A program made the position numbers and the translations under genes. The notes under the pieces are model-generated. The model was not told the origin of the DNA. It ran no database searches and saw nothing but the letters and a program-made list of their open reading frames with translations. Of a DNA stretch of 34,295 bases, positions 885 through 23,534 are shown in pieces. The DNA is taken from positions 1-34,295 of the IMG/VR virus record IMGVR_UViG_3300013138_000023; one strand, 5' to 3'. This DNA is from a virus. The first letter of the stretch is position 1, and the number at the start of each line of letters is the position of its first letter.

Positions 885-2496
885 TGTTAGGTCTCTTATT
901 TTCGTTTAGGAACTGCGAGAAGTTCATTATCGTCATTGAGTCCTCGTAAACGCTACGTTTCTTCTTTTTCTTTTTCTTCTGAGTGTTGAAATCTCCAGAA
1001 CCGAATTGATTTTCGGTGGGAACACGAATCGGTCCAGCACCGCTTATGGATCCTGGAACTTGAATAGAAACACCCGGAGCAGTTCCGCCTCCTTCACCAT
1101 CCTCAGTTATCGGAGAAATTACAGGTTGTTTCTTATTGATGACGCTCGGCCCAGGAATGAACATCCTTGAGATGGCATCCGCTTTCATTTCGCCTTCTCT
1201 TCCGCCGAATAGTCTGCCTATGAATTTCGCGGCAGTGTTCAGGGTCTTAGCATAGGCTCCATGAGTTTTCTCTCCGAATTCTGACCAAGCTCTCCCAGCC
1301 GACGTCATGTTTGGTTGAGCTGCTGGAAAAGCACGAAGTATTGAAGCTAACCTCTTCCTGAACTTCATTATCAAGCTAGCATCGGCGATCTGCTGACCGG
1401 TAACTGGTAGGTCGGTCAGTTCGTGTAATTTTAGCTTGGTGTTGAACTTGTAATGAATTCCCTTGGCCTTGTCCAAGTTTAGAGACTTATCCTTGGCCCT
1501 GTTTATGAGTTCGTTCACTGTTCTAGCAAGTTCGTCGGTCAAGTACTGAATGACTTCCGGCGAAGAAATGGACTGAAACTTGTAACGAGGTCCTTCCGCT
1601 CCACGTAAACCGTTGATTTGCTTTTTGATCTGGTCCGCTTCCGCATAGATTTCTTCTTCTGTCGTGAATAGCCGGTACCTCATGTCCATGATCCTTCTTA
1701 GAATCACGGCTTCCTGCTTGTTCCTGAGAGCTTCTTCCTTTACTTGGTTGAATTTTTCTTCTCCAATCTTGTCCTTTATTGTCTGTTCAGCTTTAGCTTT
1801 CGCTTGTTTTTCTCCGGCTTGAACCTCTGATGGGTAAATCTCGATCACCTGATCGGCGATTTCGAACGTATCGATTACCTTTTTTGCACTGTGAATCTTT
1901 GCATCTTCCTGAGTATCAGCATCCTCAATGTGAGCGATTTCAGGTTTAATCTTTTCGCTGAGCACGGTCAAAAAATCCATGTACGTGTTTGCGAATTCGG
2001 TTTTCAGGTTAGTTATGTCTTCCATAACCTCGTTAGCGATCTTGTGAATTTCTTCGTTATCGATGGTTTGGAAAGCCGAATAGATCTTTTCTAGAACTTG
2101 AATTCTAGCTGCTATCCTAGCCTTGGCAACGATTAGTTCTTCAAGGCGATACTCATCGATAGGATCCTTCGACATTATGGTTGAGATCTCGGAATCTATG
2201 TCCTCCCGTCTTTTCTTGCAGTACGCTAAGTACCTCTTGATCTTCGCCTTAGAAAATTCGGTTCCGAGTTCCTTTTCAAGAATCGGTTTCTTAAGGTCCT
2301 GAGCAATGTCAACTATGCCGCGTTCCAATAACTGGTCGATTAGGTAATCCACCTGATTCCAATTGTCGGTGCTTTCACCATTGTCTCCAGTTTTCAAACC
2401 GGCCTTGCTTAGAGCGTCCCCAATTTTGATCAGGGTCGTTTCCAGCAATAAATCTTCAAAGTGTTGAATTCTGTTTATCTTTAGAAACATTCTCAA
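874..2496 (-). CDS. Large helical/coiled-coil protein with C-terminal NFSQFLNE motif, 540 aa
   Basis: No family recognised. The first 400 residues are strongly helical and rich in E, K, I and L, with long stretches typical of coiled coils. A lysine run (about residues 508-516) precedes the extreme C-terminus. There, residues 521-533 read MTIMNFSQFLNEN, one copy of the short F-x-x-F-[LIV]-x-E motif shared by several proteins in this window. The N-terminus has a looser version (HFEDLLLET). The motif resembles the T4 internal-protein capsid-targeting and prohead-protease site, so a virion or prohead role is possible but inferred. The gene sits 2 bases downstream of the ferritin-like gene and overlaps the next gene by 11 bases. 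Confidence 0.8.
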   Translation of the reverse strand: MRMFLKINRIQHFEDLLLETTLIKIGDALSKAGLKTGDNGESTDNWNQVDYLIDQLLERGIVDIAQDLKKPILEKELGTEFSKAKIKRYLAYCKKRREDIDSEISTIMSKDPIDEYRLEELIVAKARIAARIQVLEKIYSAFQTIDNEEIHKIANEVMEDITNLKTEFANTYMDFLTVLSEKIKPEIAHIEDADTQEDAKIHSAKKVIDTFEIADQVIEIYPSEVQAGEKQAKAKAEQTIKDKIGEEKFNQVKEEALRNKQEAVILRRIMDMRYRLFTTEEEIYAEADQIKKQINGLRGAEGPRYKFQSISSPEVIQYLTDELARTVNELINRAKDKSLNLDKAKGIHYKFNTKLKLHELTDLPVTGQQIADASLIMKFRKRLASILRAFPAAQPNMTSAGRAWSEFGEKTHGAYAKTLNTAAKFIGRLFGGREGEMKADAISRMFIPGPSVINKKQPVISPITEDGEGGGTAPGVSIQVPGSISGAGPIRVPTENQFGSGDFNTQKKKKKKKRSVYEDSMTIMNFSQFLNENKRPNNGI

Positions 2497-2498
2497 AA

Positions 2499-2966
2499 TT
2501 ATTTCATTTGCAATAGGTACTGAACCTTATTCTTGAGGTCGAGCATTTCGTCAACGATGTTGAACAGTTCCGAATCCTTATCCCTATCGAAAATTTGGTA
2601 GAACATTTCCAGCAGTATGCTATCGACGAGCTGCCAGAAAGCGGGTAAAGCAACCTCGTAATCGTAGAGCATGATCGATGCCTGTCCGAATTTTAATTTG
2701 TCCTTACCGTACTTACCTGCGATTGCTTCGATAAGAGTGTCCATCTGACCGATGAACGTATCATAGAATAAGCCGAAATGCCTGTGCTCCGTGTCGAAAC
2801 CGGTTTGCAGGTGAAGGATTTTTGCCTGATCGGCGATTTGGAATAGAGATAGCATAAAAACTGCTACTGTCGATTCCTTTTGATTCTGTGGTTCTGTTAC
2901 GTCAGGGGCATCCTGTTCCAGCTGAGGATCTTCTTCTCCAACTGCTAAAGCTTCGATCTTAAACAT
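2499..2966 (-). CDS. Possible ferritin/Dps-like four-helix protein, 155 aa
   Basis: After an acidic 30-residue N-terminal extension, the protein is almost entirely helical. Residues about 44-80 carry AKILHLQTGFDTEH...FYDTF..MDTLIEAI, the spacing of hydrophobic and H/D/E residues seen in Dps-like phage proteins (family pattern: aKxLHwqT...H...g..yd.l...iD...E). The ferroxidase-type residues are only partly present, so metal storage is not claimed. The call rests on pattern resemblance by eye; any four-helix bundle could look similar. It overlaps the upstream 63-aa gene by 8 bases and is followed after 2 bases by the 540-aa gene. Confidence 0.6.
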   Translation of the reverse strand: MFKIEALAVGEEDPQLEQDAPDVTEPQNQKESTVAVFMLSLFQIADQAKILHLQTGFDTEHRHFGLFYDTFIGQMDTLIEAIAGKYGKDKLKFGQASIMLYDYEVALPAFWQLVDSILLEMFYQIFDRDKDSELFNIVDEMLDLKNKVQYLLQMK

Positions 2967-3150
2967 TTTTCTGCTTACGAATTTTTTGATTTTTCTCCCA
3001 TGTTTTGAACGGAATCACCCAGAAGTTGCGTTCCACTTTGCTTTTAACGTAGTCGTAAACCGGATTACCCTCAGGATGTTGGAGGACCGCATTCTTTAAG
3101 GGTTCCTTACCTTCTCGGTATCTTTTAGCGTTTAGGTGAGTCTTTTCCAT
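2959..3150 (-). CDS. Small basic hypothetical protein, 63 aa
   Basis: A short, lysine- and arginine-rich protein, first in a minus-strand run of four tightly packed genes. It starts with ATG directly downstream of a late-promoter-like motif at 3157-3168 and overlaps the next start by 8 bases. No domain recognised. Coding status is supported by position, overlap with a neighbour and normal codon use for this genome. Confidence 0.6.
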   Translation of the reverse strand: MEKTHLNAKRYREGKEPLKNAVLQHPEGNPVYDYVKSKVERNFWVIPFKTWEKNQKIRKQKNV

Positions 3151-3156
3151 GTCTGG

Positions 3157-3168
3157 ATTATTTATTAG
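3157..3168 (-). promoter_or_regulatory. T4-late-like promoter motif
   Basis: Minus-strand CTAATAAATAAT six bases before the ATG of the 63-aa gene. Matches the recurrent late-type core. Given the very short distance, the leader would be minimal. Confidence 0.45.
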
Positions 3169-3252
3169 CGGATGCTACCAATAAACCGGTATCAAAACTT
3201 TATTTCAAGTGTTAATAAAATAGATACATAAAACTGTAATAACGCAACGTTA

Positions 3253-4824
3253 ATGAAATTTGAAGATCTAACCAACGACGACATCCAAACGGTCTCCGAG
3301 TTATACAGGAACACGGATCTCACCTGGGATGAACGGATGAATAGATTGAGCAACTACCTTAACAAATCTGAACGCACAGTTGCCAAATGGTTATCCAGAT
3401 TAGGATTGACCGAAAGATCTATAATCGAATCACCGCAACTCATAAAAGCAAAGGAACGACAACTCGGAGAGAAGAATCGATTCCTCATTACTTGGGCTCA
3501 AAATGATACTCCAGTAAATGAAGCTTTCATTTCCAACATGGAAAAGTACGCGGAATACATCGATGCCGACATTCACGTGATAGCCGGCCGATACAGGAAT
3601 CCAACATCAATCTTCACGGACAAGAATTACGATACTTGGTCAGAACGCATTGAGAAGTACTTGGATGCTAACAGGCATAACGTCCACAAGCACATGTGGA
3701 TCATGTCCGACATCAAAATTCAACCGACTGCAACTGACCCGATGACGGGTCTTCGTGGTTTAACTGGAGTCAACTCATGCGTGTTCGGATCGCCGAAAGT
3801 TCAGTTCGAAACGGTCCCGGTTCTCGAGGGAAACCTCCCAAAGATCATGATGACTACTGGTGCATGCACAGTAAGAAATTATACAGATTCGAAATCCGGT
3901 AAAAAGGGAGAGTTCCACCACACTCTAGGTTTCGTCATCATTGAAATCAAGGATGAATCCACTTTCTTCGTTAGGCAGATAACTGCAACGGACGATGGAA
4001 ACTTCACGGACCTCAACACCAAAGTTGAGTACGATTTCGAAAACGAAGAGAGTACGATACGTAAAGTCAATAAGCTTGCTGCCATAGTTTTCGGAGACGT
4101 TCACTTCGGCCAGCACGATCCTATCGTTCTCAATAAGACTCTGGAATTCATGGAGATCATGAAGCCTGAGCACGTCATTCTACACGACGTATTTGATGGC
4201 CTTTCAATAAATCATCATGACATCAAAAATCCTTTCGTTCAATACGAACGCGAGATGAATGGGACCAACACGTTGAAGGACGAGGTCGAGTCGCTTCTCG
4301 AAGGTTTGGAAAATTTCGAAGGCTCGTTCAAGACAGTCATCGTTCGCGGAAACCATGACGATTTCCTTGACAGATGGTTGCAAACTTCCGATTGGAGAAA
4401 GAGCGGCACCTTGAAGAACTCGCTCGAGTACATGGAGTACGCTGCTCTGATACTAAGCGGAAAAGCAAAGAACGGAGTTATTCCATACCTCATCAAGCAG
4501 AGATTTCCAGATTTCATAACTTTGGACCGTAACGACAGTTACGTCATTAAGGATTGGGAACTCGGTCAGCATGGAGATCTAGGAACTAACGGTACGTACG
4601 GTTCCATAAATCAGTACAGGAACTTGAACACCAAAATCATTGTCGGTCATTATCATTCGCCTGGTAGGAAGGACGGCGCACTCGCCGTGGGGACTTCGAC
4701 CAAACTAAGAGTGAATTATAACTTTGGTCCTAGCAATTGGCTACAGTCACACGTAATCGTCCATGAGGATGGTAAGGCTCAGCACATTAACTTCACGAAC
4801 GGCGAATTCACAACACTTCTTTAA
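3253..4824 (+). CDS. Metallophosphoesterase (T5 A1-like), probable nuclease or phosphatase, 523 aa
   Basis: The C-terminal half is a calcineurin-like/Mre11-type metallophosphoesterase with all expected metal ligands visible: GDVHFG (D282, H284), D312 in HDVFDG, GNHDD (N367, H368, D369), H440 in GQHGD and GHYHS (H466, H468). The N-terminal ~55 residues look like a helix-turn-helix (KSERTVAKWLSRLGL). This architecture and length match phage T5 A1, a Mn-dependent DNase needed for host DNA breakdown; the match is from memory of the family. The gene stands alone on the plus strand between two minus-strand blocks and ends 22 bases before a strong hairpin terminator. Role in host DNA degradation is inferred; DNA end processing is an alternative. 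Confidence 0.85.
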   Translation: MKFEDLTNDDIQTVSELYRNTDLTWDERMNRLSNYLNKSERTVAKWLSRLGLTERSIIESPQLIKAKERQLGEKNRFLITWAQNDTPVNEAFISNMEKYAEYIDADIHVIAGRYRNPTSIFTDKNYDTWSERIEKYLDANRHNVHKHMWIMSDIKIQPTATDPMTGLRGLTGVNSCVFGSPKVQFETVPVLEGNLPKIMMTTGACTVRNYTDSKSGKKGEFHHTLGFVIIEIKDESTFFVRQITATDDGNFTDLNTKVEYDFENEESTIRKVNKLAAIVFGDVHFGQHDPIVLNKTLEFMEIMKPEHVILHDVFDGLSINHHDIKNPFVQYEREMNGTNTLKDEVESLLEGLENFEGSFKTVIVRGNHDDFLDRWLQTSDWRKSGTLKNSLEYMEYAALILSGKAKNGVIPYLIKQRFPDFITLDRNDSYVIKDWELGQHGDLGTNGTYGSINQYRNLNTKIIVGHYHSPGRKDGALAVGTSTKLRVNYNFGPSNWLQSHVIVHEDGKAQHINFTNGEFTTLL

Positions 4825-4968: not shown

Positions 4969-6876
4969 TTAAGTTTTTTCCTCGAGTATGAGATCGATCG
5001 ATTCGTCGACCTCTATTACTGGAACGCCAGGAGATTTGAATTGTGATAGATCAATCGATTCGTTTAGCTTCTCGTTCAAGTCTCTGTTCATGTTGAAAAA
5101 TTCTGAGTGAATTGCTGCTGGAGCCGCTGACTTGAATGACTGGTAATCGTTGTCCTTTACTGAGGTCATTATCGAATCCTTAACTCCCGCATTCGGAAGT
5201 TCCATCAATCTCAAATCCTTCTTTAGATTGAGGTTACGAGATCTTTTCTTTGCCAGTTCCAACTGAAGAGCAATGTCGCGAATCCTACTTTTGTTTGCAG
5301 CAATGATGTTAGGTTCGTAATCTGGGCGAATTTCCTTCAGTAAGTTTTCGACCTCTCCGTCCGGTACAACTACTGGTCCGATCATGAAGCTTGGGTAGAT
5401 ATTGACCAATTTGTGAAGAGCATTCACGACAGTTTCCTTTTTGAAAGGTTTGGTCTTATTCGTTGCTCCGCTGTGAACGCAGACCAACAGGCAAGGAAGA
5501 CCGTTCTCGTTGAACAGGCCCTGTGCCGATTTTATGTGACCTGGGTGAATTGGTTGAAAGTCAGAGATGATCAAGTTTACCGGTTTAGTCTTCCTATCCT
5601 CAATTCCTTTGAAGCTCTCAAAATAACCAGGTTCCTTATCTTCACCAATGAACTCGCTGAACGTTGGGAAGTAATTTTCGTAAATTGCATCTCCCATGAT
5701 TACTTTGCTAATTTTGTCTACCTGATCGTTCAGGTTGTCCTTCATTTCCTTGGTGAAGAACGTCGAACTTACTCGAATTTTTTTCTTCCTAAACATGTTC
5801 AGGAAGACACGATAGATTTCCTTGAAGTTCGGATTCGACTCGATTATTTGAGTCACTCTAGCGTCATTGACCAATCCGAAGTTAACGTTGAAATCTGCAC
5901 GCTGTAAGAAGTCCGGAATTTGAATGTCAAGGTCCCTGTACTTCTCTCCGAATTCCTTTATGAATGCCAAGTAAATGTGATTGACTAGGGAAATGTACTT
6001 CTCTTCGTAAGTTTCTCTAGCCAATTGTATGTTGCGTAGTTCGCTCAATGAGTACTGTTCTATGAAGTTCATCAGGTCGATGACGATGATCCAAATGTAG
6101 TCATCGCTCTTCTTTTGATTCTTGTCCGCCGCTCTGGCCTTTGCATTCGCTTGAAATGCTGGGTCGACCAATTTTGCTAGGAACACAGGTTCCTCAGTTT
6201 TCTTTCCGTCCTCGTAAAACCTGAATACAACTCCCTCTATGTCTTTATCGAGTGAATCACGTAGGAACGTTGCTTTCATTTTTGGATTGAGAACCGACAT
6301 GATGTACTTGGTGAAAGAAATGGTCTTGAACTTTTCTACGAGCTCGTCGAACGGAGTGTAAACGAACTCCTGAATCTTGTTCTTCTGTTCGTCAGTCAGC
6401 TTTCCCTGGAAAATGATAGGTGGTCTTTCTATTCCTAGAAGGTCGGCCCATTTGTTGAGTTCTTCCTTGCTCTGAATGGTTTCAGAAATGCTACCGTTCT
6501 GATCGAGAATGTGAATGTAACTGAGAATCAATTTGTTTTTTGGAAGACGGTCGTATGCGATGACCTGCGCTTTCTTATTCGCGAAGTACTCCATTCCGAA
6601 CATGTACGGAACTGGGATCTTTTCTATCGTTTCAGGAGATAGGCTTTCGAAGTACTGTACGGCAGGTTCGAAGTACCTGCTCAGAACTCTGTCGATGTAC
6701 GAGAGCTCGCCGTTCCTTTTGAAGTACTGGAATTTGGACGAATTTGGATCGCGCTTCACGCCAAAGAAGGCTCCGTCCATCTTCTCGTTGATGATGATGG
6801 ATTTATTAAGGAGATTCTCTATGAATGCCTTACCTTGTTTGTCTAAAACGTCCTTTAAGTGTGATAGCCCTGGCAT
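4969..6876 (-). CDS. RNA/DNA ligase fused to HxGH nucleotidyltransferase, 635 aa
   Basis: The N-terminal part is an ATP-dependent nucleic-acid ligase of the RNA-ligase type. Motif I is EKMDG with nucleophile K32, a motif III-like FGMEY follows, motif IV is EGVVFRF (E214) and a motif V-like segment LAKLVDP lies near residue 233. The middle (~250-420) is helical. The C-terminal part (~430-600) is a Rossmann-type cytidylyltransferase/NMNAT-like domain with HPGH at 444-447 and a late VKDSIM segment where an SxTxxR motif is expected; that motif is degenerate. Such HxGH domains transfer nucleotidyl groups, for example NMN to NAD. What the two activities do in one chain is unknown. A kinase and a HAD phosphatase lie upstream, suggesting a repair cassette. 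Confidence 0.85.
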   Translation of the reverse strand: MPGLSHLKDVLDKQGKAFIENLLNKSIIINEKMDGAFFGVKRDPNSSKFQYFKRNGELSYIDRVLSRYFEPAVQYFESLSPETIEKIPVPYMFGMEYFANKKAQVIAYDRLPKNKLILSYIHILDQNGSISETIQSKEELNKWADLLGIERPPIIFQGKLTDEQKNKIQEFVYTPFDELVEKFKTISFTKYIMSVLNPKMKATFLRDSLDKDIEGVVFRFYEDGKKTEEPVFLAKLVDPAFQANAKARAADKNQKKSDDYIWIIVIDLMNFIEQYSLSELRNIQLARETYEEKYISLVNHIYLAFIKEFGEKYRDLDIQIPDFLQRADFNVNFGLVNDARVTQIIESNPNFKEIYRVFLNMFRKKKIRVSSTFFTKEMKDNLNDQVDKISKVIMGDAIYENYFPTFSEFIGEDKEPGYFESFKGIEDRKTKPVNLIISDFQPIHPGHIKSAQGLFNENGLPCLLVCVHSGATNKTKPFKKETVVNALHKLVNIYPSFMIGPVVVPDGEVENLLKEIRPDYEPNIIAANKSRIRDIALQLELAKKRSRNLNLKKDLRLMELPNAGVKDSIMTSVKDNDYQSFKSAAPAAIHSEFFNMNRDLNEKLNESIDLSQFKSPGVPVIEVDESIDLILEEKT

Positions 6877-6888
6877 AATCTTTACTTT

Positions 6889-7443
6889 TTAGTCTAACGG
6901 CCCGAAGTCTCCACGACTCATTGCTTGACCGAATTCCCTTTTTCCATGCGAGTCCAGATCAATGCTAATGTGAGTGATCAAGTCAGCAACTTCCGAATTT
7001 CCTTCTAGGTACGAAATCAATTCGTTAGGAATGATGTTCTGAGACGTGGTTTTTCCACCTTTTGCTGTCAATCTCTTTTCGATTTCGTTGTACCTCAAAC
7101 CTCTTCCGCTAGCCTGCCAAATATAGAACGAGACTTCTTTCTGATTCTCGTCCTTGTAATAGTTCTTGTAGAATTCTTCAATCTTCAGGAGTTCGTCCGA
7201 GATAAGTTCGAAAGCTGCGTCAGGCCCGATTTCTTTTATGATTCCGGGTCTGTTAGAAATGATGGTTGCTACGTGAGAAGCATGCCCGTGAATGTCAGCT
7301 GGGTAGTGAATCGTTTCCAATTTCGGACACAATCCGATTATAGTTTGCAGTTCGGATAAAAATTCCGCTGCAGGTATTCCTTTGAATGGGGTCTCTAACG
7401 ATTCATTTACCTCGAAAAAATTCTTTACGAATTTCTTAAGCAT
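6889..7443 (-). CDS. Hypothetical protein, 184 aa
   Basis: No family recognised. The N-terminus KNFFEVNESLE resembles the short F-rich targeting motif seen in other proteins here. A histidine-rich HGHASHVATI stretch (about residues 50-59) could bind metal but matches no hydrolase I know. It lies between the P-loop kinase gene and the ligase-nucleotidyltransferase gene, with a late-promoter-like motif 19 bases before the ATG. Its place inside the putative repair cassette is the only functional hint. Confidence 0.75.
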   Translation of the reverse strand: MLKKFVKNFFEVNESLETPFKGIPAAEFLSELQTIIGLCPKLETIHYPADIHGHASHVATIISNRPGIIKEIGPDAAFELISDELLKIEEFYKNYYKDENQKEVSFYIWQASGRGLRYNEIEKRLTAKGGKTTSQNIIPNELISYLEGNSEVADLITHISIDLDSHGKREFGQAMSRGDFGPLD

Positions 7444-7461
7444 TTACCTTTGATAATTTTT

Positions 7462-7473
7462 GTTATTTATTAG
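7462..7473 (-). promoter_or_regulatory. T4-late-like promoter motif
   Basis: Minus-strand CTAATAAATAAC followed by an A-rich tract (AAAAATTATC). This is one of the best-preserved copies of the recurrent motif. It overlaps the 3' end of the kinase gene and would drive the 184-aa and ligase genes. Confidence 0.5.
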
Positions 7474-8122
7474 GTGGAATACCTAAAAGCCTATAACATT
7501 CTGCCGTAAATGCCACGTCTGAATCATCGTTGAACCTCTGAGTGGTCTCGTTGAAAGTGTTGGTAATGAAACTTAGTTCGTTATTCCATGGTCGATAGTC
7601 CAAGCTAGGAAGACCAAATTCGAGAAAATGGCCGAATTGGTGAAGCTCTTCTTCGGTTGAGTGAGCTCCGTCGAATATGTCCTTTCCTCTATTATCATTA
7701 GTTTGCCGATTGACCTTGATGAAAATGGTCTTGCAATTACGATAGAGATCCGAATTCAAAAGAGCTTCGTATTCTTTTCTTGCTCTTTCTGGGGTTAACC
7801 TGTGTCGAAGGACTGCCCATGTGTACGCTGAAAGTATCGCTCTATCGAAAATCCAAGTATGGCCGGCATAGTCCGGTCGTAAATTCATCTCCATGATTGA
7901 CATGATGTTGCCGAGACTGAAATAATGCAAAGCCGGAGTTGCATCGAGATCTTGCAAACCCAACGTTTTGATGTGATTGGCAAAGTAGAACTTGTAGTAC
8001 TCGACCCCATAGAATATCGGGTCCAGCGGATATTGTTCCCGTTGGGATTTGAGACTCTTTAGAAAATTCTCAATGAGGTAAGTTTTGCCGCATGAGCGCG
8101 GACCTTCTACGAATAGTATCAT
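7463..8122 (-). CDS. P-loop kinase (deoxynucleoside/polynucleotide kinase-like), 219 aa
   Basis: Walker A motif GPRSCGKT at residues 7-14, right at the N-terminus. A later WIFDRAILSAYTWA resembles the DR[SA] substrate/Walker B region of deoxynucleoside and thymidylate kinases. A basic RQTNDNRGKD segment may be the lid. No membrane or signal sequence. The start overlaps the stop of the HAD phosphatase gene by 4 bases, so the two are very likely co-translated. In T4, kinase and HAD phosphatase are fused in polynucleotide kinase; here they would be separate chains. A nucleotide-salvage kinase is the main alternative. Confidence 0.8.
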   Translation of the reverse strand: MILFVEGPRSCGKTYLIENFLKSLKSQREQYPLDPIFYGVEYYKFYFANHIKTLGLQDLDATPALHYFSLGNIMSIMEMNLRPDYAGHTWIFDRAILSAYTWAVLRHRLTPERARKEYEALLNSDLYRNCKTIFIKVNRQTNDNRGKDIFDGAHSTEEELHQFGHFLEFGLPSLDYRPWNNELSFITNTFNETTQRFNDDSDVAFTAECYRLLGIPPNK

Positions 8123-8649
8123 GTCAATCGGATTCTTTCCGGTTTACCGAGGTACCGTATGATTTCGATGGCGGACAATGGCAGTTCGAAGATTTTTGTC
8201 TTGTCCACGAAGAATATAGAAACTTGCAACTTGGACCCGCTGAGAACTGCTGCGTACTTGGTAAGTTCGGATATTGAGTCCTCGTATATGGTTACGCTCT
8301 TAACTGTCGGATTCTCGGCTAAAAGTTTTGATAGAACGTCTGCTTTGTTACCATCACGTTCGCAGAAGAAAACTTCCGTGAATTGACAACCTTGTTCGGA
8401 AAGCAATCTCATCACCTGTTCCTTGTTAGCGATCTTTCGATTGGTGATGAGGTAGTTTGGATTTTCAGTTTCTCTGGTCTTTTCGATGACGTTCTCTATT
8501 GCAGGAATGTGAAAATCAGGAGATAAGGACCTTTCTGAATCGTACCATTCGTACATAGTCTTGCCCTTCGGTTCCAATGAAGCGAAGTTCTGCGTTCTGA
8601 ACATGGTATCGTCGAAATCGAATACGTTAATGTGTTTCAGGTTGCTCAT
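8119..8649 (-). CDS. HAD-family phosphatase, RNA-repair (SAK) type, 176 aa
   Basis: HAD motif I is FDFDDT (D11, D13) in the form VFDFDDTMFRT, typical of the 'Swiss Army Knife' RNA repair-like HAD family. Motif II is likely the T of LITNR, motif III the K of GNKADVL and motif IV the acidic pair in IYEDS. The complete motif set suggests an active Mg-dependent phosphatase, plausibly acting on 3'-phosphate or cyclic-phosphate ends. It overlaps the following kinase gene by 4 bases and the upstream 123-aa gene by 23 bases. Confidence 0.85.
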   Translation of the reverse strand: MSNLKHINVFDFDDTMFRTQNFASLEPKGKTMYEWYDSERSLSPDFHIPAIENVIEKTRETENPNYLITNRKIANKEQVMRLLSEQGCQFTEVFFCERDGNKADVLSKLLAENPTVKSVTIYEDSISELTKYAAVLSGSKLQVSIFFVDKTKIFELPLSAIEIIRYLGKPERIRLT

Positions 8650-8998
8650 TTTCGAGTAGGTATGTTGTTTCTGGAGTCACTACTGAGACTCTCTCTTGAA
8701 ATAATTGAACTCTCAGCAATTCTGCAAGCTGCAATGCTTTTTTCAGTATTTGATCCTCAGTTCTCGGGAACCGCTGGTAGTTAATATACCCAACAATCAC
8801 CCCAGGTTCCCAGCCCTTTACGTACCTAAACTCAGTTGGAGTGATTGTAACGCAATCTCCTAAGCCTCTTTCGTCAAGGGTATTCACGAACTTGTCGCAG
8901 ATTTCTCTGACCTTCTCTATCGTGTGAATGTGATCACCGTATTCGGATCGAAGTCCGACCCAAATCTGAACATTGAATGATTTGACAGTTCTCATCAT
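8627..8998 (-). CDS. Conserved phage protein of unknown function, 123 aa
   Basis: The pattern IWVGLR, VTITPTEFRYV and WEPGVIVGYINYQRFP looks like a compact alpha/beta protein I have seen as a conserved hypothetical in phages, with no assigned function. It begins with two consecutive ATG codons; the first is used here. It is the first gene of the minus-strand cluster running to the ligase gene and overlaps the HAD gene by 23 bases. Confidence 0.75.
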   Translation of the reverse strand: MMRTVKSFNVQIWVGLRSEYGDHIHTIEKVREICDKFVNTLDERGLGDCVTITPTEFRYVKGWEPGVIVGYINYQRFPRTEDQILKKALQLAELLRVQLFQERVSVVTPETTYLLENEQPETH

Positions 8999-10019: not shown

Positions 10020-11483
10020 TTGCTAGTATTTGACGTAACTGCAGATAAGCAGTACCTTCAGTTAGTACACCATGACACCAAGGGTGAATTAAAGGATCTG
10101 CAGCTCTACTTCAAGAAGAGGCAACAGGGATACTTTCACAACATTCTTTACAAGAGAAAACTTTGGGACGGGTACGATAAATTCATCGATGACCACCATC
10201 GAATCGGTATCGGTCTGTGGCGAGAGGTGTACTACTTCGGCGAAAAGTACGATTACGAGATAGAAATCCGTGGATTGGACAGTCTTTTGAACCTGGAGTT
10301 CACAAAGGACAAGTCAGACAAGTTCGCGTCAGTAATGTTGGACGGAACTAACCCCCAAATCGAAGCCTACGATTATCAATTGGAAGCTCTTCACCGTGGA
10401 TTGAAGTACAAGTTCTGTGCACAGGAATTAGCGACCTCAGCAGGTAAGACCCTGATCTTCTTTTTATACTTATCGTTCCTGAAAAGAAAGGGAATCATTT
10501 CAAAGGACAAGAAAGCAATTCTCATAGTTCCGAAAGTATCCCTGGTCAATCAGACAGCTGATGCATTCGAAACGGAATATCAGACGGGGTTGGTCACCTG
10601 GAACATTCACCGTATAGGAGGGAAGAACGAATTCTCCGAGAAGAAATTTGCTAATTGCGATCTGGTCATCACCACCTATCAGAGCGTCATTCTCGACGAC
10701 GGTACTCCAGCCAAGCGTGGAAAAAAGAAAATAGAACGTAAGACCAAGCCGGAGTTCTTCAAGAACTTCAGCGTCGTTTGTGTAGACGAATGTCACACGA
10801 GTCGAGGAGATTCGATTCGCAACATCCTGTTGGCCAGCATCAATGCTGAGTACAAGTTGGGACTCTCCGGAACCATACAAATAGAGGAACAGTTCTCGGA
10901 CTTCTTCAAGATTCAGGAGTTCTTGGGTCCGCTTAGCATGAAGGTCAGAGCGAAGTTCTTGATGGACAACGATTACTCTGCTGACGTTCATGTCAAAATG
11001 CTAAAGCTCAAGTACCCAAAGGACGAAACGTTCGTTCAGAAGTATGCCGAGCTGAAACAGATGGAAGTTCATCCTCCTGGGAAAGTGATGTACGATATGG
11101 AAAAGGAATTCATTATCTCGTACGAACCTCGAATCAATTTCATTGCGAAGCTCTGTGAGAATTTGCAGGGGAATAAGTTAGTCCTATTCATAAACGTTAA
11201 GGACAAGTACGGGCAGCGAATTCAGGATAAGATTCACGAAACTAACGAGAACGTTTACTACATAGATGGAGGCGTGAACGATGACGATAGGAGCGACTAT
11301 CGAGAAATTTTGGAAAATTCAAATAAATTTTTAGTAATTGAATTAGCTGATAGATTCATTAAAATTAACCAATATCAATTTGTACAGCTAAATGATGGTT
11401 CTAGAAAATACGCAAAGGATTTAACAGAAATTGATGAAATCTCAGATGCATGGGTAACTTTACAAAAGTGTCAATATAAATAA
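10020..11483 (+). CDS. uvsW: UvsW-like SF2 helicase, N-terminal part (broken by insertion)
   Basis: TTG is the only usual start in the open frame; an in-frame TAA lies 16-18 bases upstream. The UvsW-type N-terminal domain contains YKRKLWDGYDKF. The helicase core follows: Q-motif-like YDYQLEAL, motif I ATSAGKT (K143), Ia LIVPKVSLVNQ, motif II DECH (256-259) and motif III SGT (283-285), then the second RecA domain up to DGGVNDDDRSDYREILEN. From about base 11320 the sequence turns AT-rich and encodes a foreign ~50-residue tail (KFLVIELADRFIKI, then VQLNDGSRKYAKDL) ending at 11483. Motifs V and VI lie 1.2 kb downstream, past an HNH gene. UvsW drives branch migration and R-loop removal in T4. This half alone cannot be an active helicase. 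Confidence 0.88.
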   Translation: MLVFDVTADKQYLQLVHHDTKGELKDLQLYFKKRQQGYFHNILYKRKLWDGYDKFIDDHHRIGIGLWREVYYFGEKYDYEIEIRGLDSLLNLEFTKDKSDKFASVMLDGTNPQIEAYDYQLEALHRGLKYKFCAQELATSAGKTLIFFLYLSFLKRKGIISKDKKAILIVPKVSLVNQTADAFETEYQTGLVTWNIHRIGGKNEFSEKKFANCDLVITTYQSVILDDGTPAKRGKKKIERKTKPEFFKNFSVVCVDECHTSRGDSIRNILLASINAEYKLGLSGTIQIEEQFSDFFKIQEFLGPLSMKVRAKFLMDNDYSADVHVKMLKLKYPKDETFVQKYAELKQMEVHPPGKVMYDMEKEFIISYEPRINFIAKLCENLQGNKLVLFINVKDKYGQRIQDKIHETNENVYYIDGGVNDDDRSDYREILENSNKFLVIELADRFIKINQYQFVQLNDGSRKYAKDLTEIDEISDAWVTLQKCQYK

Positions 11484-12525
11484 GTAAAAGTTCACATTTT
11501 GTACAGGTATGAAATTCAAAAATATAAATTACTTCTATTCACAGTTCATTAATGAATTGGGAATGCCTGACGATGACCTCAAATTATTTGAATATTTGAC
11601 TTTTTTATTACGGTATTCCGAAGTGCACGATAGTACGCAAACAGTTGAATATACTGAAAATCATCATATTCTTCCTAGATCGCCATTTAATCAGCACATC
11701 AATGCAAATTGGAACATCGTCAATCTTGTTTATTTAGATCATATTTTTGTTCATGAATTGTTAGCACAAGCGTATAATACCAGACAATTTTTGCGAACAT
11801 TAAATTTTATGAAGAGTGATATTTCTAAGAATCATAAAATTTTATCGATTGCAGCAAAGAAAGGATGGATGAAGTTAAAGAGCAATATTGAAATTTATGA
11901 AAAATGGAAGTTAGCTAGACACGAATTTTTAAAAAATATTTCACTGACAGAAAGAAGTCGTAGATCAAATAAAGCATGGGCTAAAATAAAAGCAGACCCT
12001 TTAAAGTATGCGGCACGATGCAAACAAAATAGTGAGAACTGGAGCAATGATTTACGTATATTAAAAAGTAAACAAATGAAAGAATATTTTACAAATAATC
12101 CAAAGGAAAGTTCAAATAGAGGTTTGAAACGATGGGCATCGGCTGATACAGAATATCGTAAAGCATTCGGCGAGAAAATAAAGAAATCGTTATCAACTAT
12201 AATAGTAAAAGATAAAATAAGTACAAAATTAAAAGCTAAGTGGAATGAACCTTTATTTAGAGATAAAATGAAAAACCGTAAAATTCGGCAATTCAAGTAT
12301 CTTCTTATTTCGCCACTTGGCGAAGTTTTTAGACGAGTTGGCGTCCAATCTATACTTGATGAATTTAATTTTTCAGCAAGTTTATTTAGAAAATTTACGA
12401 ATTCTAATAAGCGAGTTAAATCAAAGTATCTTAAATGTGAGAAAGTTCGAAATACAATAGGTTGGACAATTAATAAAATAAGCTGATTAATTTAATATGG
12501 CAAAAATAGTATCATTAAAAAATAT
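11320..12525 (+). mobile_element. AT-rich intervening element with HNH endonuclease inside uvsW
   Basis: The helicase reading resumes cleanly if this stretch is removed: ...DYREILEN joins TKEATGVVLVASY, which aligns with T4 UvsW around motif V. Base composition shifts abruptly to AT-rich at both edges; edges are good to about 15 bases. Content: a ~50-codon tail in frame with the helicase that has some Hint/intein flavour (LNDGSRKYAKDLTEIDEI), a 25-base gap, the HNH gene, and a short leader starting MAKIVSLKNIEEN. It could be a fractured gene with a reduced split intein, a group I intron, or a plain endonuclease insertion leaving a two-piece helicase. I found no convincing group I core motif and no classical intein start (Cys) or end (HN). 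Confidence 0.65.
11509..12486 (+). CDS. HNH homing endonuclease, 325 aa
   Basis: An HNH-type core near residues 51-83: ENHHILPRSPF, then NANWNIVNLVYLDHIFVHELLA, the layout of phage HNH homing enzymes. The remainder is very basic, with repeated short W/K-rich segments (RSNKAWAKIK, NRGLKRWAS, KLKAKWNEP) that look like NUMOD-type DNA-binding repeats; the C-terminus (GEVFRRVGVQSILDEFN) resembles a further NUMOD helix-turn-helix. Codons are far more AT-rich than in neighbours, a sign of recent transfer. It lies inside the interrupted helicase gene and presumably cuts uninterrupted uvsW alleles. Confidence 0.88.
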   Translation: MKFKNINYFYSQFINELGMPDDDLKLFEYLTFLLRYSEVHDSTQTVEYTENHHILPRSPFNQHINANWNIVNLVYLDHIFVHELLAQAYNTRQFLRTLNFMKSDISKNHKILSIAAKKGWMKLKSNIEIYEKWKLARHEFLKNISLTERSRRSNKAWAKIKADPLKYAARCKQNSENWSNDLRILKSKQMKEYFTNNPKESSNRGLKRWASADTEYRKAFGEKIKKSLSTIIVKDKISTKLKAKWNEPLFRDKMKNRKIRQFKYLLISPLGEVFRRVGVQSILDEFNFSASLFRKFTNSNKRVKSKYLKCEKVRNTIGWTINKIS

Positions 12526-12577
12526 AGAGGAGAATACGAAGGAGGCAACTGGCGTTGTGCTAGTTGCCTCCTATTGA
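12497..12577 (+). CDS. Short ORF holding the resumed helicase sequence (26 codons)
   Basis: ATG to TGA, product MAKIVSLKNIEEN followed by TKEATGVVLVASY. The second half matches the strand before motif V of UvsW (T4: GIIIVASYGVFSTG). The expected next residues, GTFSTG, are present but start seven bases later in another frame, after TGAGGTC. This may be the start of a C-terminal helicase polypeptide that is frame-broken, or that needs a frameshift to continue. Confidence 0.5.
   Translation: MAKIVSLKNIEENTKEATGVVLVASY
12541..12571 (+). other. Perfect 10-bp hairpin at the helicase frame break
   Basis: GGAGGCAACT and AGTTGCCTCC enclose the 11-base loop GGCGTTGTGCT. The stem ends one base before the TAT codon that precedes the TGA. 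It lies inside sequence coding for conserved helicase residues, so it is either chance or a recoding/pausing structure. Confidence 0.6.
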
Positions 12578-12842
12578 GGTCGGAACGTTTTCTACTGGAA
12601 TAAACTTGAAGAATGTCAACTACATCATATTCGCCGAAAGCTACAAATCTGAAATCACCGTTCGACAGTCAATCGGCCGTGGAATGCGTAAGCTGAAGGG
12701 AAAGTACAAGATCACCATTTTGGATCTCGTTGACGATCTTGATGGGTACATCGTGAAGCACGGAAAAGTTAGGGAAAAAATCTACAAGGAACAGGAATTT
12801 GTGACTTCAAAACACGAGTACGATCTGACTCCGTTTAGGTAA
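12564..12842 (+). CDS. uvsW: UvsW-like helicase, C-terminal part (motifs V and VI)
   Basis: From VGTFSTGINLKNVN onward the frame encodes helicase motif V, then YIIFAESYKSEITV and motif VI RQSIGRGMRK, followed by KITILDLVDDLDGY. This corresponds to the last ~80 residues of T4 UvsW. The frame can start only at TTG 12564 (or read through from the preceding short ORF by a +1 shift at TAT-T). It has no good ribosome binding site, and GGAGG upstream is within the hairpin. It would complete the helicase only by splicing in trans, assembly of fragments, or recoding. Confidence 0.75.
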   Translation: MPPIEVGTFSTGINLKNVNYIIFAESYKSEITVRQSIGRGMRKLKGKYKITILDLVDDLDGYIVKHGKVREKIYKEQEFVTSKHEYDLTPFR

Positions 12843-22783: not shown

Positions 22784-22795
22784 GTTATTTATTTG
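22784..22795 (-). promoter_or_regulatory. T4-late-like promoter motif
   Basis: Minus-strand CAAATAAATAAC followed by AAAAAGTATCG, a near copy of the motif at 7462-7473. It overlaps the last codons of the nucleotidyltransferase gene and precedes the 154-aa ATG by about 18 bases. Confidence 0.5.
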
Positions 22796-23534
22796 ATCCT
22801 CCTTCTAGGTACTCAGCGAAAGATTTAACGTGCTTCTTTTTGGTCAATTCTCCAGGGTTCCGTCTGAACTGGGTCACGTTATTTGCAGGATTCAAATCCC
22901 ATCTGGAATAAGGAGCAGAATTCGTCCATTGAGTAGGAATCGCTCCGAGATTGGTGCTTATTGGAGTTGGAGAAACGTTAGGGTCGGTTTCCTGATTGAA
23001 CGAATCGGCTGGGATAGAATAGGTTCCGCTCGCTTCTTCGTTCACTATTTTCCATAGTTTTTCCTTGTCCACTTGTCTTGGCAATGCCGCAAAGAATTTT
23101 TCCTTGTCCATGTTCTTAATAAATTTTCGCATGTCGGTACCAGATACACCCTCAGGTCTCTTAGTAGTAATGCGGTTGATTTTCCCTATTCCCCCAGAAA
23201 AACGTTCGACAGTATCGAACCTGTTCATATCAGAGTCAAGAGAATATATGTTGAGCGTGACGTCCCGGGCGTCCTTGCTTTTTCCCAACAGGTCGATGAA
23301 TTCGTAGGCTGTTTTTACTGGAGAACCTTCGGCCAGGTTGATCTTCACAGATTTATCGTCCTTGAAGTACTCCTTTAGGATCTGCACGGCCATCGCTCCA
23401 GTCACGCCGTCCATTTCGATAGGAGAAACGAAGACCTGAGTCTCGTCGTTCTGCTTAGCTATCTTTTTGATGGCTTCGTAATGACCGACATGAGGTGGCT
23501 TGAACTTGCCAGTGATGATCCCGACCTTCTTCAT
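22785..23534 (-). CDS. Nucleotidyltransferase (cytidylyltransferase/NMNAT-like) with C-terminal targeting-like tail, 249 aa
   Basis: N-terminal GIITGKFKPPHVGHYEAI with HVGH at 15-18, and SGTDMRKFI near residue 133 matching the SxTxxR motif: both halves of the HxGH nucleotidyltransferase active site are intact, unlike in the ligase fusion. The last ~60 residues are not catalytic and end in KKHVKSFAEYLEGGSNK, another copy of the short F-x-x-Y/F-L-x motif. The substrate cannot be read from sequence (NMN, phosphopantetheine and CTP-type are all possible). It sits among putative structural genes, which with the tail raises the idea of a packaged enzyme. Confidence 0.83.
   Translation of the reverse strand: MKKVGIITGKFKPPHVGHYEAIKKIAKQNDETQVFVSPIEMDGVTGAMAVQILKEYFKDDKSVKINLAEGSPVKTAYEFIDLLGKSKDARDVTLNIYSLDSDMNRFDTVERFSGGIGKINRITTKRPEGVSGTDMRKFIKNMDKEKFFAALPRQVDKEKLWKIVNEEASGTYSIPADSFNQETDPNVSPTPISTNLGAIPTQWTNSAPYSRWDLNPANNVTQFRRNPGELTKKKHVKSFAEYLEGGSNK

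Follow-up and report, generated by a model that had tools for sequence, protein, structure and literature searches.

Our analysis of a 34.3-kb viral fragment (IMG/VR record IMGVR_UViG_3300013138_000023, positions 1 to 34,295; hereafter the window) showed that its minus strand encodes three conserved proteins, in this order: a HAD phosphatase, a P-loop kinase, and an RNA ligase fused to a HIGH nucleotidyltransferase-like domain. Established here are the presence and order of these genes, their homology and class of fold, and the conservation of their motifs; the most economical account of the trio is a variant operon that would heal and seal nucleic-acid ends, probably those of RNA, a proposal that we hold tentatively and with slightly less than even confidence. 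The SAK-type HAD would strip a terminal phosphate at the 3' side of a break, the kinase would phosphorylate the 5'-OH, or else a nucleotide taking part in repair, and the Rnl2-type domain of the ligase would join 5'-P to 3'-OH via a Lys32-AMP intermediate. Activity, substrate, the choice between RNA and DNA and the cooperation of the three proteins are what we infer from these data, and the kinase step is the weakest in this account.

Layout and conservation of the gene set

The window belongs to a T4-related phage, with genes for the UvsW helicase, DNA polymerase, primase, endonuclease VII, head closure and portal proteins. Along the minus strand, the HAD_SAK_1-type phosphatase (8119..8649, 176 residues) is followed by the kinase, which has a thymidylate kinase (TMPK)/deoxynucleoside kinase (dNK) fold (7463..8122, 219 residues), and then by the ligase fusion (4969..6876, 635 residues). 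Two further open reading frames (ORFs) on this strand, 6889..7443 (184 residues) and 8627..8998 (123 residues, phrog_4848), have no assigned function. The original prediction had placed five genes at these positions on one strand, with the HAD and kinase overlapping, and all of this was confirmed, the shared stretch being 4 nucleotides. Judged by their sequences, these are not chance ORFs, because diverged homologues of the HAD, kinase and ligase keep order and strand together with invariant catalytic motifs. Scans of the window and of three loci found no tRNA, the window has no Rfam match, and promoter and terminator signals were uninformative.

Four overlapping IMG/VR scans, with the kinase, ligase and HAD as queries, yielded 7, 20, 36 and 38 partly redundant loci, on contigs of up to 271 kb. 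The three genes stand in the same order at every recovered locus that extends far enough, in line with the predicted conservation of gene order. There are about 24 distinct versions of the set, at 35-70% identity, in phages of 250-271 kb, and the carriers form a group of large T4-related phages from lake and sea; this order is also that of a 254-kb contig assigned by binning to a Bacteroidetes metagenome-assembled genome. The 4-nucleotide HAD-kinase overlap, judged by homologous start sites, recurs in nearly all loci. The kinase-ligase gap measures 5-8 nucleotides in loci lacking an inserted ORF and 440-609 in those that have one, and in the loci examined insertions fall at the kinase/ligase junction or beyond the ligase, never at the HAD/kinase junction. 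The ORF at 8627-8998 occurs in the closest relatives only (L010/L036 and L049) and that at 6889-7443 in about six nearer relatives only (including L010, L011, L012, L013 and L049). The suggestion that these two belong to the system was not borne out; by their distribution they are optional extras outside the conserved core.

In T4, hoc and inh are neighbours of rnlB (minus strand), which is located upstream of uvsW (plus strand). The ligase of the window (minus strand) is likewise upstream of uvsW (plus strand), with the HAD/kinase operon in between. The set resembles T4 Pnkp (PseT) with RnlA and RnlB in the Rnl2 fold and, as far as they can be aligned, the Rnl2 motifs, in the position and orientation of rnlB relative to uvsW, and in co-encoding a HAD and a P-loop kinase. 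It differs from them in that the kinase is separate and of TMPK/dNK type, the HAD is of SAK_1 type and the ligase carries a C-terminal NMNAT-like domain. As a side observation, uvsW itself is interrupted in the window (10020-12842): intact UvsW of relatives aligns with 10020-11339 and then again with about 12521-12836, and the insert of about 1.2 kb, which holds an HNH homing endonuclease ORF (11509-12486), may be an intron or another intervening element, with no Rfam intron match.

The ligase-HIGH fusion protein

Pfam matches the window ligase to RNA_ligase over residues 26-223 (3e-8) and to CTP_transf_like over residues 440-535 (8e-4), and we place the Rnl2-type domain at about residues 1-390 and the HIGH domain at about 431-600, with HPGH at 444-447. 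The structural model is modest (mean predicted local distance difference test score, pLDDT, 70.6; predicted template modelling score, pTM, 0.52); searched with Foldseek, it finds T4 Rnl2 best (3e-7), other RNA ligases next, and NadM and PPAT for the second domain, whose profile matches solved NMNATs. The catalytic lysine K32 (motif I, KxxG) is kept in 22 of 22 distinct clade proteins. R54, E214 and K235 align with T4 Rnl2 R55, E204 and K225 (motifs Ia, IV and V), the R55-equivalent position being R or K throughout the clade; the motif III residue, E95, was placed by eye, the alignment leaving T4 E99 without a partner. By modelled fold and motif the domain is an Rnl2-type RNA ligase, an assignment based on Pfam, fold and motif alignment because hhalign comparisons with the single T4 Rnl2 and Moby ligase-like sequences were unsuccessful; PDB sequence searches started from individual proteins of the window were uninformative. 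The original prediction was right to see a ligase here, in fact one of Rnl2 type that retains the catalytic lysine, and had missed the C-terminal HIGH domain.

The position of T4 Lys227 is occupied by Val in the window ligase. On the cue of K227Q data for T4 Rnl2 (PMC3149579), we considered this as the mark of a ligase confined to pre-adenylated ends and dropped the idea, Val being present also in two HNH-fused phage Rnl2-type ligases that we aligned; the diplonemid Rnl2 has Val at this position as well (PMC4599027).

The HIGH domain resembles those of NadR, NadM and other phage HIGH proteins, and is homologous to a stand-alone gene of Stenotrophomonas phage Moby (E 4e-6). Its HxGH motif is kept in most clade members and reads TNSH in three relatives. 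Unlike that of NadR and NadM, the domain sits behind an Rnl2 domain and has lost the C-terminal ISSTxxR-type phosphate-binding motif, which is missing from 22 of 22 clade members. The huge-phage homologue L028 shows the reverse, with ISASVVR present and the ligase lysine lost, which suggests to us that a two-domain protein has degenerated reciprocally. The NMNAT-like domain of the window is more likely to bind a nucleotide or substrate than to transfer it. The loss of the phosphate-binding motif also counts against the idea of a split NadR serving NAD+ salvage, in which the kinase would act on nicotinamide riboside, the HIGH domain would adenylylate nicotinamide mononucleotide (NMN) and the HAD would be an NMN nucleotidase. 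NadR combines exactly these two domains, kinase and HIGH, according to a published survey (PMC9503650), the HIGH domain is nearest to NMNAT, NadM and PPAT, and NadR and viral Nrk1 are among the fold matches of the kinase. We nevertheless consider such a pathway extremely improbable, given also that the kinase scores higher against TMPK and dNK structures and that a search of six genomes or large fragments of the clade found no NAPRTase/NadV (one is present in huge phage LR756500).

Ligase-like and HIGH sequences meet in other phages as well. In Moby, a hoc-like gene is followed by two ORFs and then by a ligase-like ORF (KIKMDG, by motif reading) that overlaps a HIGH-domain gene; Microcystis phage Mel-JY01 has a single protein with the HIGH domain ahead of a ligase-like stretch (GG..HMNHPFDD...EKLDG, also by motif reading); and in S-PM2, the HIGH domain lies behind DUF6267. 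On this reading, the association of ligase-like and HIGH domains recurs in T4-related phages. In the literature available to us we found neither an account of this association nor a description of a ligase-HIGH fusion, and the portions that we read of two RNA-repair surveys (PMC7824862, PMC9503650) do not mention an Rnl2-HIGH fusion.

Several neighbouring features deserve record. The Moby region (1441-4558 of locus L088) is a series of overlapping ORFs after the hoc-like gene, resembling a Pol-beta-type nucleotidyltransferase, a PD-(D/E)XK-like protein, the ligase-like protein and the HIGH nucleotidyltransferase, the first three assigned by motif reading with no Pfam match. At L011-L014 and L026, the ligase-HIGH ORF is some 350-400 residues longer, with a GDI...IEVK(G) pattern like that of PD-(D/E)XK nucleases (motif reading; no Pfam match), as in L013 8001-10952; the metallophosphoesterase gene found at 3253-4824 in the window was not detected at these loci. 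The window has a second, separate HIGH nucleotidyltransferase gene (22785-23534, minus strand), whose homologue in one relative (L077, 5536-7002) is fused behind a HAD domain.

The HAD phosphatase and the kinase

HAD motifs I-IV (D11, D13 and T15 of DxDxT, T69, K102 and E123-D124) are invariant across 15 homologues. Direct Pfam matches of the window protein are weak (HAD_SAK_1 1.5e-3, below cut-off; Acid_phosphat_B 1.4e-3). The 15-member profile, in turn, matches two clear members of the family: a phage HAD_SAK_1 domain (98.4%, 6e-15), whose own score to HAD_SAK_1 is 1e-23, and a HAD_SAK_1 protein of a T4-like phage (97.3%, 2e-11), whose own score is 2e-32. Through these intermediates, sequence comparison clearly joins the HAD to HAD_SAK_1 (PF10307, 'Swiss Army Knife RNA repair'), and it is nearer to SAK_1 than to the phosphatase domain of T4 Pnkp. 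Phage RNA-repair neighbourhoods described in two surveys combine ligases with SAK HADs, and V5 and Mydo also have a 'nucleotide kinase' (PMC7824862, PMC9503650). The present set is like them in placing a SAK-family HAD beside an ATP-dependent RNA ligase and in pairing nucleotide kinase with ligase, and unlike them in that no 2H, cRec, sirtuin, KptA or RlaP gene was recognised in it. The wider context of HAD homologues points both ways, to repair and to nucleotide metabolism, on present gene readings: the homologue scoring 2e-32 to HAD_SAK_1 (L127) precedes a Nudix gene and an ORF in which two HxT-like motifs are present (2H-like by eye, without a Pfam match), whereas a HAD_SAK_1 gene in L128 lies near ORFs resembling thymidine kinase, dCMP deaminase and another P-loop kinase. 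A separate observation is that the 485-kb phage LR745208.1 (L030 7956-9482) has HAD_SAK_1 in one protein with the catalytic core of a eukaryotic-type topoisomerase I (Topoisom_I 2e-26).

The catalytic residues of the kinase are invariant among its homologues; the protein has a P-loop (EGPRxxGKT), a DRA motif (FDRAIxSAY) and, in a lid modelled with low confidence, R145, and no family model matches it above its cut-off. Its structural model (mean pLDDT 81.8, pTM 0.82) has the fold, DR(X) motif and lid of the TMPK/dNK superfamily, the lid being poorly modelled (pLDDT <50 at 146-150). A PDB fold search finds dTMP kinases closest (best 4e-5), then deoxyadenosine/deoxycytidine kinase, with NadR lower; a viral fold library gives one phage relative (31% identity) and then mainly TMPKs and dNKs, and T4 Pnkp is not among the 50 best matches listed in either. 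The best PDB sequence match of the kinase profile is a deoxynucleoside kinase (E 0.025), and its PHROG matches are thymidylate kinases (best 0.004). By hhalign, E. coli Tmk aligns over 87 columns including the DR motif, T4 Pnkp over 23 P-loop columns only and T4 gp1 over the P-loop alone. All three scores are weak and the E-value for Pnkp is numerically better than that for Tmk, so that the assignment rests on the extent of the matches and on the folds.

The kinase is accordingly, by sequence profile and model, of the TMPK/dNK superfamily type and not Pnkp-like; it shares fold, DR motif and motif spacing with that superfamily and differs from it in its unusual EGPRxSGKT P-loop and in being translationally coupled to a SAK HAD. 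A nucleotide or nucleoside may be its substrate, as a candidate only. The original prediction saw the activities of T4 Pnkp encoded as neighbours; the HAD fits this in belonging to a family named for RNA repair, though not in its distance from the Pnkp phosphatase domain, and the kinase is not of the Pnkp type, so the pair is not simply a split Pnkp. Two findings together were to count against that prediction, and the kinase does largely group with salvage enzymes, whereas the gene order has not been lost.

The grouping of the kinase is an argument for the main rival, namely that the trio serves nucleotide metabolism, with the kinase acting on (hydroxymethyl-)deoxynucleoside monophosphates (dNMPs) or deoxynucleosides, the HAD as a 5'-nucleotidase and the Rnl2 gene merely adjacent. 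Seven of the 15 HAD homologues weakly match the Pfam 5-nucleotidase model (best 0.0024), and the L128 neighbourhood fits as well. Two relatives (L135 and L136, from G001 and G005) have a second thymidylate-synthase homologue overlapping a dCMP-deaminase-like ORF; with D at the TPTDVAFF site, it is possibly a dCMP hydroxymethylase, and cytosine modification is possible in this clade. The relatives showed no Thymidylate_kin match above cut-off and no T4 gp1-type dNMP kinase. Against this, the HAD clearly belongs with HAD_SAK_1, and the trio forms an operon with an RNA ligase, apart from the thymidylate genes, which in relatives lie elsewhere in the genome. We regard this rival as somewhat unlikely.

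Weighing end repair

Several observations, besides the type of the kinase, weigh against an end-repair operon. The flanking genes (uvsW, 9564 and 9061; 3253, 2499 and 874) are conserved too, as clade-wide synteny, so that gene order by itself shows common descent and is not independent proof of joint function; the coupling of the HAD and kinase frames hints at such a function more strongly. One sub-clade has D instead of E in motif III and a shifted or altered motif IV (EG to DE/SE), which makes ligase competence less certain there. Ligase homologues of huge phages have no adjoining HAD or kinase, and five of them lack the catalytic lysine, with ENLDG, ENIQG or EDxQG in place of EKxDG. In other parts of their genomes, relatives G005 and G006 (252-253 kb) have an Rnl1-type ligase next to an AAA_33 P-loop kinase, as well as an Rnl2-type ligase with a cRec-like ORF nearby and, in G005, HAD_SAK_2; the 271-kb genomes likewise have an RNA_ligase and an AAA_33 gene. 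These separate and more canonical ligase and healing genes make the trio an additional cassette in such relatives.

The huge-phage substitutions, together with the missing ISSTxxR-type motif, the TNSH variants, and the ligase-like and HIGH-domain genes near head genes in Moby and Mel-JY01, could also mean that the fusion is a relaxed ligase-fold protein, mainly non-catalytic (binding, virion or assembly-associated), in an operon unrelated to repair. This we consider unlikely, since the catalytic Lys is retained throughout the clade with R or K at the R55-equivalent position, and the catalytic residues of the HAD and kinase are invariant.

End healing and sealing remains our preferred explanation, and the trio would then be a variation on phage RNA-end repair of a known type, with an unusual kinase and an Rnl2-HIGH fusion. 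A more elaborate division of labour, in which Rnl2 is joined to an adenylyltransferase-fold domain handling the App 5' end or a mononucleotide, and the SAK HAD works with a polynucleotide kinase of independent TMPK/dNK origin, seems to us very unlikely.

If the trio does heal and seal ends, these phages would have drawn on a kinase of different descent to build a repair pathway, and the recurrent, largely unannotated ligase-like/HIGH associations of T4-related phages would gain a role. There would then be at least two parallel RNA-repair cassettes per phage, which would be relevant to the resistance of jumbo phages to tRNA-cleaving defences. Should the trio serve nucleotide metabolism instead, its kinase would be the dNMP kinase so far missing from a clade that apparently makes a modified cytosine precursor.

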